Part shown: piece by piece, positions 32,423-38,488 of the stretch
Layout: each line of letters opens with the position of its first letter
Position numbering within the stretch: position 1 is the first letter of the stretch
Source of the DNA: Microbacterium pumilum
GTDB lineage: Bacteria > Actinomycetota > Actinomycetes > Actinomycetales > Microbacteriaceae
DNA: 64,000 bases
Direction: 5' to 3'
NCBI RefSeq assembly: GCF_039530225.1
Contig: NZ_BAAAOH010000001.1
Coordinates: 2,790,001 to 2,854,000, forward strand
Made by a program: the position numbers and the translations under genes
The notes under the pieces: generated by a model
What the model was told of the DNA's origin: nothing
What the model saw: only the letters and a program-made list of their open reading frames with translations
The model's database searches: none

Positions 32423-34528
32423 CTACGCGTCGATCGCGTCGCGAGACAGACGGTGCGAGGACTCGACGATGAACTCGCGGCGCGGGGCGACCTCGTTGCC
32501 CATCAGCAGTTCGAAGATGTGACCAGCGCTCTCGGCGTCCTCCAGGCGCACGCGCCGCAACAGACGCCCGCCCCGGTCCATCGTCGTGGTGGCGAGCTGA
32601 TCGGCGTCCATCTCACCGAGTCCCTTGTAGCGCTGGACTGGTTCGTGCCAGCGTCGTCCGGACTTCGTGACCTTCGTGAGCAGGGTGTGCAGCTCGGGCT
32701 CGCTGTAGGTGTAGATCGTCTCGTTCGGCTTCGTGCCGGGGTTCATGACGATCACGCGGTGAAGCGGTGGCACGGCCGCGAACACGCGCCCTGCCTCGAC
32801 CAGTGGGCGCATGTAACGGAAGAACAGGGTGAGCAGCAGGGTGCGGATGTGGGCGCCGTCGACATCCGCGTCGCTCATCAGAATCACCTTGCCGTAGCGT
32901 GCCGCATCGAGATCGAACGAGCGACCCGAGCCCGCGCCGATCACCTGGATGATCGAGGCGCACTCCGCGTTGGAGAGCATGTCGCTGACAGAGGCTTTCT
33001 GCACGTTGAGGATCTTGCCGCGGATGGGCAGCAGCGCCTGGAACTCGCTGTTGCGCGCGAGCTTCGCGGTGCCCAGTGCCGAGTCGCCCTCCACGATGAA
33101 GAGCTCGGAGTGGGCGACATCCGATGAACGGCAGTCGACGAGCTTCGCGGGAAGCGAGGAGGACTCGAGGGCGTTCTTGCGCCGCTGGGTCTCTTTGTGC
33201 GAGCGCGCAGAGATGCGCGCCTTCATCTCGGCCACGACCTTGTCGAGAAGCAGCGCCGTCTGATTCTTGTCGTCGCGCTTGGGAGACGTGAATCGCGCCG
33301 TGAGCTCTCGCGTCAGGACATTGTTGACGATCTGGCGCACCGCGGGCGTGCCGAGGACCTCTTTCGTCTGCCCCTCGAACTGCGGCTCCGGCACCCTGAC
33401 GGTGAGGACCGCGGTCATACCGGCGAGGATGTCGTCCTTCTCGAGCTTGTCGTTGCCGACCTTGAGACGCCGGGCGTTCTGGTCGACCTGGGCGCGCAGC
33501 ACCTTCATGAGTCCCTGCTCGAACCCCTGCTGGTGCGTGCCGCCCTTGGGCGTCGCGATGATGTTCACGAACGAGCGCGAAACTGTCTCGTATCCGGTCC
33601 CCCAGCGCAGTGCGATGTCGACGTGGCACTCGCGCTCGACGTCGGTGGGCACCATGGCGCCGGTCGGCTGGAGCACCGGCACGGTCTCGGTGAAGGTCCC
33701 GGAGCCGGTGAGCCGCCAAGTGTCGGTCACCGCGGAGTCGGGAGCGAGGAAGTCGACGAATTCCGAGATGCCGCCGTCGTAGCGATACCTCGTCTCGACC
33801 GGCTGATCCGTGCTCGAAGCGCCTGCGGTTGGTGAGCCTGTCGAAGCACGTTCGTCTCGCACCACGATCTCGAGTCCCGGGACGAGGAACGCGGTCTGGC
33901 GAGCGCGCTGCGCCAGATCGTCGAGGTTGAAGGCGGCATCCTTCGTGAAGATCTGCCGGTCCGCCCAGTAGCGGATGCGGGTGCCGGTGACGCCTTTCGC
34001 GGCACGCCCGGTAACCCGCAGCTCGGAATTCGTCTCGAAGGGCGTGAACGTCGATGACGGCGATCCGTTCGAGAACACGCCGGGTTCGCCGCGGTGGAAG
34101 GACATCGCCCACGTCTTGCCGTTGCGATCCACCTCGACGTCGAGCCGCTCGGACAGGGCGTTCACGACGGATGCGCCGACACCGTGCAGTCCGCCCGAAG
34201 CGGCGTACGAGCCGCCGCCGAACTTGCCGCCGGCGTGGAGCTTGGTGAAGACGACCTCGACACCCGAGAGGCCGGTGCGGGGTTCGATGTCGACCGGGAT
34301 GCCGCGCGCCTGGTCGCGCACCTCGACGCTGCCGTCCGCGTGCAGCACGATGTCGATACGCGATCCGTGCCCGCCGAGAGCTTCGTCGACGGAGTTGTCG
34401 ATGATCTCCCACAGGCAGTGCATCAGGCCGCGGGAGTCGGTCGAGCCGATGTACATGCCCGGCCGCTTGCGGACCGCTTCGAGTCCCTCAAGCACCTGGA
34501 GGTGATGGGCGGAATACTCGGAGGTCAC
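32423..34528 (-). CDS. parE: DNA topoisomerase IV subunit B (ParE-like type IIA topoisomerase)
   Basis: A 701-residue ATPase subunit of a type IIA topoisomerase. N-terminal GHKL motifs are EIIDNSVDEAL, DQARGIPVDI and GGKFGGGSYAASGGLHGVGASVVNAL. The TOPRIM domain contains FIVEGDSALGTAKLARN and LMSDADVDGAHIRTLL. The EGDSALG form, not EGDSAGG, and the pairing with the ParC-like gene favour topoisomerase IV. GTG 34528 is chosen because VTSEYSAHHLQVLEGLEAVRKRPGMYIG is the family start. A repeat-derived insert (ERASTGSPTAGASS) lies at about residues 226-239. Confidence 0.9.
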   Translation of the reverse strand: MTSEYSAHHLQVLEGLEAVRKRPGMYIGSTDSRGLMHCLWEIIDNSVDEALGGHGSRIDIVLHADGSVEVRDQARGIPVDIEPRTGLSGVEVVFTKLHAGGKFGGGSYAASGGLHGVGASVVNALSERLDVEVDRNGKTWAMSFHRGEPGVFSNGSPSSTFTPFETNSELRVTGRAAKGVTGTRIRYWADRQIFTKDAAFNLDDLAQRARQTAFLVPGLEIVVRDERASTGSPTAGASSTDQPVETRYRYDGGISEFVDFLAPDSAVTDTWRLTGSGTFTETVPVLQPTGAMVPTDVERECHVDIALRWGTGYETVSRSFVNIIATPKGGTHQQGFEQGLMKVLRAQVDQNARRLKVGNDKLEKDDILAGMTAVLTVRVPEPQFEGQTKEVLGTPAVRQIVNNVLTRELTARFTSPKRDDKNQTALLLDKVVAEMKARISARSHKETQRRKNALESSSLPAKLVDCRSSDVAHSELFIVEGDSALGTAKLARNSEFQALLPIRGKILNVQKASVSDMLSNAECASIIQVIGAGSGRSFDLDAARYGKVILMSDADVDGAHIRTLLLTLFFRYMRPLVEAGRVFAAVPPLHRVIVMNPGTKPNETIYTYSEPELHTLLTKVTKSGRRWHEPVQRYKGLGEMDADQLATTTMDRGGRLLRRVRLEDAESAGHIFELLMGNEVAPRREFIVESSHRLSRDAIDA
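33831..33850. repeat. Dispersed short repeat inside parE, copy 2
   Basis: GGTGAGCCTGTCGAAGCACG carries the element core GAGCCTGTCGAAG within the parE reading frame. On the coding strand it contributes residues RASTGSP, in a hydrophilic loop between IVVRDE and PVETRYRYDGG. The frame is kept. Confidence 0.65.
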
Positions 34529-34696
34529 AATTCTCAAGCGTATCCGGGGGCGGCGACGGCGTCGGGGTGACACGCTCCAGGCGGATGCGGGGTACGCGCA
34601 CAGCGAAATGTCATCGGTTCGCGGCATTCTGGTAACAAACGCGTGGTTGTATTTCTTACCTGCACCGGAGTTCTACATATACGAGGAGGCACCGAG

Positions 34697-34919: not shown

Positions 34920-35960
34920 TCAGCCTCCGAGATACTCGCGGCTGACCAGCGGCGAGATCCGAACGGCGATCTCCTCGCCGATGCTGGCGAACGCCTCAGC
35001 GAGATCCGTCGCAGAGGCGGCCCCTTCGCCGTAGAACGTCACCTCGTCACCGAGGAGCGCTTCAGGCCAGCGTTCCACGACGCTCTCGAGACGATCGACG
35101 CGCAGGAGTGCCCGCGGGCCCGAGGGACTCGCGACCACGACACGGCCCGCCAGCGTCGACGGCAGACCGTGCAAGGCGCCCAGGGCAACGTGGGCGCCTT
35201 CGTCATCGATACGGATGACGGGTGCCGAGAGCGTGGCGATGGGCCGGATGCCGAGCATCCCCTCGTCTGGTCCCCCGGCCGGCCGGATTCCATACGCGAA
35301 AGCGCCGATCCGGACCAGATCGTGACGTAACTCGGGGCGCGCGAACGCGGCTGCACTGGCGGTGAGGTGGCGGACCGAAGGTCTCAGCCCTGCGCGCTCG
35401 GAGGCCTCGACGGCCGCGATGAACTGCGCGGACGCGGCATCGTCTTCTTCGTCCGAGGCCTCCGCGAGGTGGCTCCAGACGCCGACCACACCTATCGCGC
35501 CGGTCGATTCGAGGGCGGCCGCATCAGCCGCAGCCGCATCCCATTCCTCGGGTCGGATGCCGTTGCGGTGCAGGCCGGTGTCGATCTTGAGGTGCACCCG
35601 AGCCGGCTGAGCGATCTCCCGCGCGATCCGGGCGACATCGTGGAGCAGATCCCGGTCGCCGACCCCGAGATCGAGTCTGAGGTCGATCGCGGTGCGGATC
35701 TCGTCGTCCGAGCCGGCGAGCCACACGAAGATCCGTGCATCTTCGCCCAGCGTGGCGCGAACGGTGGCGCCGGTCTGCACGTCGAAGGCGCCGAACCACC
35801 GAACACCCGCCGTCCACGCGCGCTGGATGATCGGTACGAGGCCGTGGCCGTAGGCGTCGTCTTTCACGACGAGCATGTGCTCGGAGGGCGCGATCTCGCC
35901 TCGGATGTGCCGGAGATTCGCGGCGAACGCGTCGAGGTCGATCCTCAGCGCGGAGGTCAC
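34920..35960 (-). CDS. alr: Alanine racemase-like protein, PLP-lysine half
   Basis: A 346-residue fold-type III PLP protein. The barrel has Lys33 in VVKDDAYGHG, the Schiff-base lysine; HLKIDTGLHRNG; and HDLVRIGAFAYGI with the Arg that contacts the pyridine nitrogen. The C-terminal beta domain is present but reduced: I cannot find the [SG]YG tyrosine motif nor the 'MD' carboxylate-binding motif normally there. Both are present in the gene just upstream (35957-36616), which overlaps it by four bases (GTGA). Alanine racemase makes D-alanine for peptidoglycan. I infer that the two products form one enzyme. Confidence 0.85.
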   Translation of the reverse strand: MTSALRIDLDAFAANLRHIRGEIAPSEHMLVVKDDAYGHGLVPIIQRAWTAGVRWFGAFDVQTGATVRATLGEDARIFVWLAGSDDEIRTAIDLRLDLGVGDRDLLHDVARIAREIAQPARVHLKIDTGLHRNGIRPEEWDAAAADAAALESTGAIGVVGVWSHLAEASDEEDDAASAQFIAAVEASERAGLRPSVRHLTASAAAFARPELRHDLVRIGAFAYGIRPAGGPDEGMLGIRPIATLSAPVIRIDDEGAHVALGALHGLPSTLAGRVVVASPSGPRALLRVDRLESVVERWPEALLGDEVTFYGEGAASATDLAEAFASIGEEIAVRISPLVSREYLGG

Positions 35961-36616
35961 GGTCGGTGCTCCCGCACGGCGCGAAGGCCCACCGCGGTGA
36001 CGAGTTCACCCGAGGTGAGACCCGTGACGGCGACCCATTCCTCGATCGACGGCTCGCCGCCATCCGATCCACCGAAGAAGACCACTTCATCTCGGCGTCG
36101 CACCGGCGTTTCGCCGATGTCGACGACGCAGACGTCCATCGCGACCCGTCCGACGATCGGATGCCGCTCCCCGGCGATCGAGACCGACACCCGGTTGCCC
36201 AGAGCCCGCACGATGCCCTGCGCGTACCCGCCCACGACGAGCGCGACGTGCGTATCGCGCTCGGCGCGGTGCGTGTACCCGTAGGAGACTCCCTCGCCGG
36301 CGCGGAGCACCTTGACCGACAGCACGCGGCCGGACAGCCGCATCACCGGATGGAAGCCGTCAGCGAGGCCCAGCAGCGCCTCGGCGTGCGGGGAGCCGAC
36401 GTCCGCGTCAGCGACCGCAAGCCCGGCCGCGGCGAGGGTGCCGGCGACCTCCGTGAAGCCGTGCCCGTACGCGTCGGCGGGCATGCCGACGAGCGTGCCC
36501 TCGGGCAGGGCGAGCACCTTGACGTTCTCGCGCAGCGCGGCATGCGAGATCTGCGCGACGGGCGCGCTGCGCGTGGAACCGGCAGACGCGGAGGCATCCA
36601 GGTCGGCCGCAGTCAC
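35957..36616 (-). CDS. Alanine racemase-like protein, catalytic-tyrosine half lacking the PLP lysine
   Basis: A 219-residue protein. A shortened N-terminal barrel segment keeps PADAYGHGF but has Pro46 where the PLP lysine should be. The C-terminal domain is complete: GEGVSYGYTHRAERDTHVAL (Tyr112, equivalent of the catalytic Tyr), GGYAQGIVRAL and VGRVAMDVCVVDIG. It is therefore complementary to the following gene, with which it overlaps. GTG 36616 lies seven bases after a minus-strand TAGTCT, so a leaderless transcript is likely; an upstream in-frame ATG at 36664 would overlap the divergent promoter and is less likely. Confidence 0.8.
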   Translation of the reverse strand: MTAADLDASASAGSTRSAPVAQISHAALRENVKVLALPEGTLVGMPADAYGHGFTEVAGTLAAAGLAVADADVGSPHAEALLGLADGFHPVMRLSGRVLSVKVLRAGEGVSYGYTHRAERDTHVALVVGGYAQGIVRALGNRVSVSIAGERHPIVGRVAMDVCVVDIGETPVRRRDEVVFFGGSDGGEPSIEEWVAVTGLTSGELVTAVGLRAVREHRP

Positions 36617-36622
36617 GCCATC

Positions 36623-36629
36623 TAGACTA
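36623..36629. promoter_or_regulatory. Overlapping divergent -10 elements (alr pair / ATP-grasp gene)
   Basis: TAGACTA: the plus strand reads TAGACT (36623-36628) towards the ATP-grasp gene and the minus strand TAGTCT (36629-36624) towards the racemase pair. The two -10 boxes share five bases. Confidence 0.45.
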
Positions 36630-36644
36630 TCGGGGACCCCCGAT
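36629..36644. promoter_or_regulatory. Palindrome between the alr pair and the ATP-grasp gene
   Basis: ATCGGGG, two bases, CCCCGAT: perfect seven-base arms centred between the divergent starts, next to the shared -10 boxes. It could be an operator, or a hairpin in the leader of the ATP-grasp transcript. Confidence 0.45.
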
Positions 36645-36662
36645 CCCCATCCCGGAGCATGC

Positions 36663-37685
36663 ATGCCTTCTCAGGGCCTCGGCCTCGCGCCCCGCCTTCG
36701 TTATCTCGCAGGACGCGCACGGCGCATCGATGTCGGCTCGGTGTTCGAGCGCGCCAAAGAGACGTCCGCACATCACGGCAAGTGGATGCCTGCCGTCGTC
36801 GTCGACATGCTGTGGTCGGCCGGCTTCAAGCAGGTGGGATTCCAGGACTACGTCGACTACGACTTCGCGATTCTGAACGCCGCCGAACGGGCGACCTACA
36901 TGACCCATCCGGTCTCGAACGAGCTCTCACAGAAGTACGACCACCCCGACTACCGGCACATCTTCCAGGACAAGGTCGAGTTCGACCGCGTCTTCTCGGA
37001 GCATCTCCATCGCGAGTGGATGGTGGTCGACGCGGGAAACGCCTCCGAGCTGCGTGCGTTCACCGAGCGCCAGGGCACCATCGTGACGAAGGAGCCCGTC
37101 GGCCAGGCCGGGACGGGCGTGCACCGCTACCACGCGGCCGAGGTCGACGATTGGGATGCCTTCCACGCCGGCCTGTTCGCCCGCGGCGAGCTCCTCGTCG
37201 AAGAGGTCATCGTGCAGCATCCGGACCTTGCCGCCGTGTGCCCCGGAACCGTCAACACCACCCGCGTGACCGCCTTCTTCGACGGCGAGCGGGCCCACAT
37301 CCTCGCGATGGCGCAGAAGTTCGGCCGGGGTGCCGTCTCGGACCAGATGACCTTCGGCGGTTTCTACACGATGCTCGACGAGAACGGCCATGCCTTGGGT
37401 GCCGGTTATGACTCGCACGCGCACGTCCACGAGACGCACCCCGATTCGGGGTTCCGGATCGCCGACTTCCGGCTGCCGATGATGGACGAGGTCCGAGCCT
37501 TCGTGGATCGCGTCGCACGTGTCGTGCCGCAGGTGCAGTACGTCGGCTGGGACATCGTCGTGACACCCACCGGACCTGTGCTCGTCGAGGGCAACTGGGG
37601 TGCCGGCGTCTACGAGAACAAGCCGAGCGTCACCGGCATCCGCACCGGTAACAAGCCCCGCTATCGCGAGGCCATCGGGTTCTGA
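36663..37685 (+). CDS. ATP-grasp ligase, sugar-transfer-associated type
   Basis: A 340-residue protein resembling the sugar-transfer-associated ATP-grasp family. The ATP-binding part includes GTIVTKEPVGQAGTGVHRY (a flexible Gly-rich loop with Lys), ELLVEEVIVQHP and NTTRVTAFFDG. The metal-binding C-terminal part is YVGWDIVVTPTGPVLVEGNWGAG. Such enzymes join a carboxylate to an amine using ATP; the substrate here is unknown. ATG 36663 follows CGGAG. It is divergent from the split alanine racemase and convergent with the F420-ligase-like gene, so a shared cell-envelope or peptide-tailoring role is possible. Confidence 0.75.
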   Translation: MPSQGLGLAPRLRYLAGRARRIDVGSVFERAKETSAHHGKWMPAVVVDMLWSAGFKQVGFQDYVDYDFAILNAAERATYMTHPVSNELSQKYDHPDYRHIFQDKVEFDRVFSEHLHREWMVVDAGNASELRAFTERQGTIVTKEPVGQAGTGVHRYHAAEVDDWDAFHAGLFARGELLVEEVIVQHPDLAAVCPGTVNTTRVTAFFDGERAHILAMAQKFGRGAVSDQMTFGGFYTMLDENGHALGAGYDSHAHVHETHPDSGFRIADFRLPMMDEVRAFVDRVARVVPQVQYVGWDIVVTPTGPVLVEGNWGAGVYENKPSVTGIRTGNKPRYREAIGF

Positions 37686-37789: not shown

Positions 37790-38488
37790 CTAGGCGGGCC
37801 GGACGACGCCCAGTGGCGTGGACTGGTGGCCCTGGCCGAGCGGGTTGTCCTTCAGGATCGCGACGAGACGCTTCTCGCCGGCCCGATCGAGGGTCGACCC
37901 CAGGATGTTGCCGCCGAGATCGTTGATGTCGACGACCGCAACCTCCGCAGTGCCGCCGAGCAGCGACTTCAGGTGCGCCGACACCTCGCGCGGACGCTCC
38001 GGGCCGAGAACGACCGCCTTGTTGTAGGGCGGGATGGTGCCACTGGTCGGGCCGTCGATGGCGCGCGCCTTGTCGCCCGCGATGCGATAGAAGTCGCCCT
38101 TGCGGCCGAACAGCTTGGTCACGGCCGAGACCGCTGCCGCGAACAGGATGCGGATCGTGCCGCACTCGCGCAGCGCCATCTCCATCGTCTCGGGCATGCC
38201 GAGGCCGATCCCGTACGGCGTGCGCACCACGAACTTCGAGAGGAACAGCGCGAGTCGACGCGGCTTGATGTCCTCGACGAGATAGGACCGCCCCTGCGTG
38301 ATCGCCACGATCTTCTCGGTGACGAACAGGATGTCGCCGGGCTGCACGACATCGGTCGCGTACTGGCTGACGAACGCGTCTAGGTCGTCACCCGGCATCA
38401 CGACATGCGTGCGGATCGGGATCCGCGACACCTTCTCGCCGTTTAGTTCTACAGTCAGCGCCTTGCCGGCGTTGGCTTCGGACATCAC
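37790..38488 (-). CDS. Coenzyme F420-0:L-glutamate ligase-like protein
   Basis: A 232-residue protein of the CofE-like family. The N-terminal [22 protein letters not shown] and [19 protein letters not shown] match the family start. [22 protein letters not shown] and [12 protein letters not shown] (metal-binding acidic residues) follow. True CofE adds gamma-linked glutamates to F420, but no other F420 gene is visible in this window, so the substrate may differ. Its neighbour is an ATP-grasp ligase. The start overlaps the sigA stop by four bases (ATGA). Confidence 0.75.

Follow-up and report, generated by a model that had tools for sequence, protein, structure and literature searches.

The window, that is the whole stretch of 64,000 nucleotides analysed here, belongs to a genome assembled in one contig of 4.45 Mb. 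The genus is Microbacterium, as the PAC2 gene near the pair matches records of this genus at 60-82% identity (measured against the first row of the query). It carries on its minus strand two overlapping genes related to alanine racemase (Alr), hereafter BIG and SMALL. The two genes, the codons discussed below and the neighbouring genes are as follows.

34920..35960, minus strand: BIG chain, whole PLP barrel plus degenerate C-terminal domain (346 aa, GTG start)
35957..36616, minus strand: SMALL chain, barrel unit 1 plus intact C-terminal domain (219 aa, GTG start)
35957..35960, minus strand: stop/start overlap of BIG and SMALL, 4 nt (the overlap has this exact length in 76 of 92 distinct pairs; it depends on the script rule by which start codons were assigned)
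35862..35864, minus strand: codon of BIG Lys33, the PLP lysine, Lys39 of the reference enzyme (Lys in 92 of 92)
34974..34976, minus strand: codon of BIG Glu329, at the Ala-gate position Tyr354 (Glu in 77, Asp in 15 of 92)
36479..36481, minus strand: codon of SMALL Pro46, site of the lost PLP lysine (Lys in 0 of 92 SMALL)
36281..36283, minus strand: codon of SMALL Tyr112, second catalytic base Tyr265' (Tyr in 92 of 92)
36134..36139, minus strand: codons of SMALL Met160-Asp161, equivalent to Met312'-Asp313' (Met in 92 of 92, Asp in 89 of 92)
32423..34627, minus strand: parE/gyrB-type gene anchoring the locus, neighbour of the pair
36663..37685, plus strand: ATP-grasp protein (PF14397), divergent neighbour (13 of the 17 pair-positive relatives have it at the locus)
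37790..38488, minus strand: F420-0:gamma-glutamyl-ligase-like protein (PF01996), replaced there by MurT/GatD in 3 of 23 genomes

The preliminary description of this DNA had reported two genes sharing four bases, and this layout was confirmed, on the minus strand (34920-35960 and 35957-36616), as were the motifs on which it relied. The 346-residue BIG product has Lys33 within VVKDDAYGHG and lacks the [SG]YG site; the 219-residue SMALL product has Pro46 at the lysine position and retains SYGYTH (with Tyr112), GYAQG and AMD. In Pfam searches, BIG scores 178.9 bits with Ala_racemase_N and just 16.3 bits with Ala_racemase_C (cut-off 25), and SMALL scores 116 bits with Ala_racemase_C and 16.3 bits with Ala_racemase_N (cut-off 24.1), the latter match covering the first 57 positions only. 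Homology to both families is present when the two products are taken jointly, and neither chain reaches the TIGR00492 equivalog cut-off of 168 bits (138.7 for BIG and 118.5 for SMALL). SMALL is more than a C-terminal half: of the barrel, it has kept the first beta-alpha unit and lost the remainder. The C-terminal domain of BIG is still there in degenerate form; this combination argues that the pair derives from two copies and not from one cut gene. The best structural matches of both predicted folds are alanine racemases: the AlphaFold model of BIG (pLDDT 92.1) aligns with the Streptomyces lavendulae enzyme (1vfh) with a TM score of 0.94, and that of SMALL (pLDDT 85.1) with 1xfc with a TM score of 0.79, both scores normalized by query length.

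Active-site residues of the two chains

We aligned 92 distinct BIG-SMALL pairs, drawn from Microbacterium and other Microbacteriaceae, with 19 complete Alr sequences, located the active-site columns by motif and numbered them after the Geobacillus enzyme. The 92 pairs were those left from 103 found after dropping 11 that repeated a BIG sequence already counted. The counts do not include locus L157, where BIG is fused to upstream sequence, loci L150, L185 and L214, which are truncated at contig ends, or locus L027; the pairs at loci L222-L249 lie outside the 92.

Lys39, Tyr43, Lys129, Arg136, His166, Ser204, Arg219 and Gly221 are each present in 92 of 92 BIG sequences, and the Asn203 position is Ala in all of them, as it also is in 14 of the 19 complete Alr. 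The sites belonging to the partner chain are missing from BIG, Tyr265 falling in a gap in every sequence and Met312 being found in none. Their loss is imperfect at Asp313, which persists in 25 of 92 BIG (5 of 68 Microbacterium-type and 20 of 24 other sequences). SMALL has Lys39 in none of the 92, Tyr265 and Met312 in all, Asp313 in 89 (Asn in three) and Tyr284 in 87 (Phe in five). A single-polypeptide Alr has both the PLP lysine and the tyrosine of the opposite face; in all 92 pairs the lysine is found in BIG alone and the tyrosine in SMALL alone, and the pair jointly has both.

Column conservation was evaluated over the active-site segments of a solved Alr, as given in the accessible part of PMC3245724. 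Six of nine chain-A and three of three chain-B segments were used; chain-A segments 61-65, 82-86 and 101-105 were excluded for want of an anchoring motif. Mean conservation in BIG was 0.82 in chain-A segments, 0.38 in chain-B segments and 0.53 elsewhere. The corresponding values were 0.23 (with 57% gaps), 0.93 and 0.35 for SMALL, and 0.81, 0.94 and 0.68 for complete Alr. This partition matches the known dimer interface and is hard to explain unless the products of BIG and SMALL meet in one site. Both genes are under purifying selection, with dN/dS of 0.09-0.25 for BIG and 0.10-0.32 for SMALL (14 comparisons with no locus in common), and their identities covary (r = 0.91 over 4186 comparisons), a correlation to which shared ancestry contributes too.

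A decaying or chimaeric gene, or an assembly artefact, would agree with the unusual architecture, the one point found in favour of such a reading. Its probability is negligible, as conservation refutes it: the arrangement recurs in 92 distinct pairs, dN/dS is well below 1, overlap and synteny are conserved, and the same pair is present in 17 of 22 same-genus relatives. BIG and SMALL very probably constitute a genuine two-gene racemase with one shared active site, present in many genera of Microbacteriaceae. The way residues are reciprocally conserved in the 92 pairs and the purifying selection acting on both genes strongly support an obligate heterodimer with a single working site, as put forward in the preliminary description; we infer both dimer formation and catalysis at the composite site from these sequence data. 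BIG would hold PLP on Lys33, with Tyr37, Lys125, Arg132, His164, Ser202 and Arg217, and the C-terminal domain of SMALL would supply Tyr112 as second base and Met160-Asp161 for substrate binding, like the opposite chain of an ordinary homodimer. As very little barrel is left in SMALL, the BIG-SMALL interface must differ from that of the usual dimer.

It had also been suggested that one of the products had turned regulatory, one partner being catalytic and the other an inactive paralogue modulating its homologue. Each chain by itself does lack one catalytic base, and pseudo-enzyme regulators occur among PLP fold-III enzymes, antizyme inhibitor being an example. A regulator would not need, however, partner-chain segments (as delimited in the accessible part of PMC3245724) conserved at 0.93, nor Tyr265, Met312 and Asp313 in 92, 92 and 89 of 92 SMALL, and BIG is unable to complete its own site. 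Since SMALL keeps the catalytic partner-chain residues, a purely regulatory partner is disfavoured and we consider it improbable. Even less credit is due to a PLP chemistry other than racemisation, such as decarboxylation or deamination. The reaction could be altered by the change at the gate position described below and by the absence of the second base from BIG; nevertheless, both bases of two-base racemisation are present across the pair, along with Lys129, Arg136, His166 and Arg219, the last of which is described as favouring racemisation in the available text of PMC3245724.

Distribution, neighbourhood and origin of the pair

Both genes are adjacent in 17 of the 22 same-genus relatives and not in the other five (G008, G012, G013, G015 and G018). 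Across the family (199 genomes), SMALL-like matches spanning the profile were found under at least 23 of 85 genus labels; an adjacent BIG was confirmed in 19 of them, and in three more the available piece ends inside BIG. Order-wide, matches with E <= 1e-40 outside the family in 198 genomes were all in frames of at least 353 aa, no SMALL-like gene being seen. By record name, SMALL-like proteins come from Microbacterium deminutum, M. terregens and M. trichothecenolyticum, as well as from Diaminobutyricibacter, Diaminobutyricimonas, Leifsonia, Agreia, Pseudoclavibacter and Homoserinimonas. One of these proteins (P0092) carries an out-of-family name, Micromonospora sp. DT81.3, taken from the record as given. 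The genome containing the SMALL of Agreia Leaf283 has a second BIG-SMALL-like set (L265, G198:C1:1756000-1772500), about 41% identical, with BIG before SMALL and located away from the parE locus.

A locus survey performed via the neighbouring PAC2 gene, by which both presence and absence become visible, covered 80 named loci, the best 80 of 487. The pair is present at 54 of them and lacking at 25; L144 ends short of the place. Included in the 54 are L121 (a divergent pair), L150 (SMALL only, at a contig end) and L157, from the metagenome-assembled Microbacterium sp. 69-10, where BIG extends about 220 codons into upstream sequence and the SMALL frame has 192 aa, so that it may be frameshifted or misassembled. 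Upon searching 18 genomes of the 25 pair-less loci, the pair was found elsewhere in five (M. schleiferi FXH-192, M. enclense NIO-1002, L123, L137 and L154). M. enclense is reported as an L-Lys species; strain NIO-1002 (L148/L180) has a disrupted home locus and carries both genes intact at another site. A SMALL-like gene was not found in the other 13 of the 18 genomes searched, which include M. flavum, M. paulum, M. hominis, M. pullorum, M. radiodurans, M. saccharophilum and M. oleivorans.

With respect to gene order, parE and DUF7455 lie on one side of the pair in the window, and the ATP-grasp gene (PF14397), the PF01996 gene and sigA on the other. Among the 17 pair-bearing relatives, parE, DUF7455 and sigA are present in 17, the ATP-grasp gene in 13 and the ligase-like gene in 14. 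In 20 regions from other genera, parE adjoins the pair in 19, and sigA, MurT-GatD and the ligase-like gene are found in 17, 15 and 3, respectively; L263 and L265, the latter being the second Agreia copy, have neither MurT-GatD nor the ligase-like gene. MurT/GatD acts on the D-Glu alpha-carboxyl of the stem peptide, which is the attachment point of type-B bridges, and its location beside the pair therefore supports a bridge role for the latter.

The PF01996 gene and MurT/GatD seem mutually exclusive at the locus. Twenty of 23 genomes have PF01996 there and no MurT_C (PF08353) match genome-wide, and G010, G011 and G021 (loci L076, L077 and L083) have MurT/GatD in its place, the ligase-like gene being assessed at the locus only; PF08353 scores in these three genomes are only 34-36 bits, so misses are possible. 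Both may represent alternative routes to modify the D-Glu alpha-carboxyl. At 13 pair-less loci (L085, L087, L088, L105, L106, L108-L112 and L115-L117; M. arborescens, M. saccharophilum, M. radiodurans and M. oleivorans among them), two tandem ATP-grasp genes occupy the place where others have the pair and one ATP-grasp gene; these are candidate ligases for a Gly-L-Lys bridge. SMALL and the divergent ATP-grasp gene are separated by 46 bases (36617-36662). A DSLD(G/A)VT-like stretch upstream of SMALL recurs in L012 and L018 and is perhaps a common promoter element rather than coding sequence.

Regarding the origin of the pair, loci L198 and L201 (two genomes, genus label g73) encode a full-length SMALL (344 aa) in which Asp replaces the PLP lysine, next to a BIG that keeps the lysine. 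Judged by its sequence, this SMALL looks like the step preceding barrel loss. In a tree of 68 proteins, which included 16 of the 68 Microbacterium-type BIG, BIG is monophyletic (support 99) and consists of an Asp-gate clade of 17 rows (support 91) and a Glu-gate clade of 26 rows (support 99). The full-length SMALL proteins branch among complete Alr and not with BIG; their branch is very long (1.74), and for this reason no sister relationship between BIG and SMALL is claimed here. A duplication would have been followed by reciprocal loss, one copy losing the Tyr and Met-Asp sites and the other the lysine and, later, most of the barrel; we infer this order of losses from the BIG and SMALL sequences. 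Fission or frameshift of one alr was rejected, since both chains have the first barrel unit and a C-terminal domain and the layout is kept in 92 pairs. Of the initial view of an alanine racemase split into two, the complementary halves stand and the single divided gene does not: BIG and SMALL are homologues whose losses complement each other, and the full-length SMALL of L198 and L201 resembles an intermediate.

Substrate of the pair and cell-wall chemotype

One complete alr exists in the window's genome besides the pair (G000:C1:1792975-1794045). BIG-SMALL is hence not the D-Ala supply, and a role as sole D-Ala source is ruled out for this genome. The preliminary description had held that a separate complete alr, combined with no growth or activity effect of the pair, would speak against its reading; the alr found answers half of this, removing the D-Ala role and leaving the heterodimer unaffected. 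An additional long-open-frame racemase match was obtained in 16 of 17 pair-bearing same-genus relatives and in 10 of 10 named pair-bearing genomes searched; for G003, a pair-bearing draft (94% complete), there was no other alr among the matches listed. A search with the C-terminal family only gave, in all 23 named genomes, a match lying in an open frame of 391-664 aa, and the 13 of them that do not have the pair show one C-terminal-family match in 11 cases and two in 2 (G038 and G047).

The Tyr354 position, which is Tyr in 19 of 19 complete Alr of the same alignment, is Glu in 77 and Asp in 15 of the 92 BIG. According to the available text of PMC3485190, Tyr354 and Tyr265' make the constriction that limits Alr to alanine (the role of Tyr354 is also treated in the accessible part of PMC4517790). 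Lysine racemase has Thr at this position and a broad-specificity enzyme Ala, and the side-chain amine of docked D-Lys contacts Thr391 (PMC3485190, same portion). Upon restoring Tyr at the gate, lysine activity was reduced, not abolished (53% in Lyr; PMC3485190, same portion), so the gate residue is one factor among others. An acidic residue at this position would suit a diamino acid as substrate, the omega-amino group of which it would bind. Considering the complete alr together with Glu or Asp at the gate in 92 of 92 BIG, the pair is probably not the alanine racemase of the organism, as it had been taken to be.

Glu-type pairs (Microbacterium, Agreia) would racemise L-Orn to D-Orn, Asp-type pairs (Leifsonia, Diaminobutyricibacter) would racemise Dab, and the resulting D-diamino acid would enter the type-B peptidoglycan bridge. 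All 68 Microbacterium-type pairs and that of Agreia Leaf283 have Glu at the gate; Diaminobutyricibacter McL0608, Diaminobutyricimonas LJ205 and Leifsonia AG29 have Asp, the pairs of these four strains being assigned by identical or near-identical SMALL. Walls of Leifsonia contain Dab and those of Agreia D-Orn; for Diaminobutyricibacter and Diaminobutyricimonas we assume Dab walls from the genus names. As Asp and Glu each form one clade, with one switch event, the match of Asp/Glu to Dab/Orn is weak evidence. The pair of Microbacterium sp. RU33B (L121) falls in the Asp clade and lies at the same locus in opposite orientation; if the Asp gate does indicate Dab, RU33B would be a Dab-type strain. 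None of the protein records matching its SMALL is named M. diaminobutyricum among the best 120 of 594 matches, and the portion of the literature on M. diaminobutyricum available for search yielded no text bearing on this prediction.

The occurrence of the pair was then compared with reported wall chemotypes. In the accessible part of PMC10757982, D-Orn is reported for M. testaceum, M. oxydans, M. galbinum, M. sufflavum and M. radiodurans, and L-Lys for M. arborescens and M. enclense; that of PMC10978784 gives Orn for M. schleiferi and Lys for M. saccharophilum. For species with such explicit sources, five have the pair and Orn, one the pair and Lys, one Orn and no pair, and two Lys and no pair (Fisher p = 0.23); seven of nine species in this small table thus agree with an association of D-Orn with the pair and of L-Lys with its absence. 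Some of the genomes in the table are not from type strains, and M. arborescens was scored from its locus alone. The discordant species are M. radiodurans (D-Orn reported, pair not found) and M. enclense (L-Lys reported, intact pair off the home locus). When the cluster II species M. hominis, M. flavum and M. paulum, which we take to be of the Lys type, are added, the counts become 5/1/1/5 (Fisher p = 0.08). Cluster II is that of PMC10757982, in its accessible part. The pair tends to occur in D-ornithine Microbacterium and to be absent in L-lysine ones, a trend that fits the proposed substrate and does not prove it.

A heterodimeric racemase of the proposed kind could still be a second alanine (or serine) racemase instead of a diamino acid racemase. 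Both chains belong to the Alr family and sequence alone does not fix the substrate; the two discordant chemotypes, and G003 with no other alr among the matches listed, also fit this reading. It is nevertheless unlikely: another racemase gene in a long frame is found in the window's genome, in 16 of 17 pair-bearing relatives and in 10 of 10 named pair-bearing genomes searched, all 92 BIG have Glu or Asp in place of the alanine gate Tyr354, the pair is syntenic with MurT/GatD, and it is usually missing from Lys-type species, where D-Ala is needed too. The product is likely a D-diamino acid for the cell wall. Overall we favour, with some confidence, a heterodimer of alanine racemase fold with one composite site, which would have arisen by duplication and reciprocal loss and would most likely provide D-Orn or D-Dab for type-B bridges. 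The more detailed scenario is evenly balanced between holding and failing: a single origin in Microbacteriaceae by duplication and complementary degeneration, a supply of D-diamino acid for type-B walls, and a gate that reads the side-chain amine, Asp for Dab and Glu for Orn.

Several known systems share features with the pair. VanT, the serine racemase of vancomycin resistance, has both halves in a single chain and a role that differs from that of the pair. Like BIG, its Alr-like domain has the Tyr354 position changed, in this case to Asn (as cited in the available text of PMC3485190). Alr/DadX enzymes (fold type III, TIGR00492) have the same fold and PLP lysine motif as the pair, the same two-base logic of Lys and Tyr from opposite chains and, as expected for the pair, head-to-tail pairing. 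They are, however, homodimers with two sites and both halves in each chain (PMC3245724 and PMC3485190, in their accessible parts), whereas BIG and SMALL have one half each and a Glu/Asp gate. Lyr and Bar also have the Alr fold with a changed Tyr354 position (Thr391 in Lyr, Ala393 in Bar) and basic amino acids as substrates, but they are homodimers and their gate is Thr or Ala, not Glu or Asp (PMC3485190, same portion). PddB makes D-Dab in an actinobacterium; it is a cofactor-independent Dab racemase with weak homology to DapF, and unlike the pair it belongs to an unrelated enzyme type (accessible part of PMC8225329). In the titles and abstract openings of the open-licence literature, among the matches listed, we found no description of a heterodimeric or split alanine racemase, nor of the D-Orn/D-Dab enzyme of type-B walls.

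Textbooks describe alanine racemase, an antibacterial target, as a homodimer, and here its two-fold symmetry appears broken into two genes, each with what the other lacks. Such a natural case, found in many genera of a single family and with an apparent full-length intermediate in one of them, makes the evolution of an obligate heteromer directly testable. Public databases name such proteins 'alanine racemase' or 'alanine racemase C-terminal domain-containing protein', which hides both the two-gene architecture and the candidate D-Orn/D-Dab role. For the family, the pair is a candidate source of the D-Orn or D-Dab of type-B cell walls, a trait used in classifying these bacteria.
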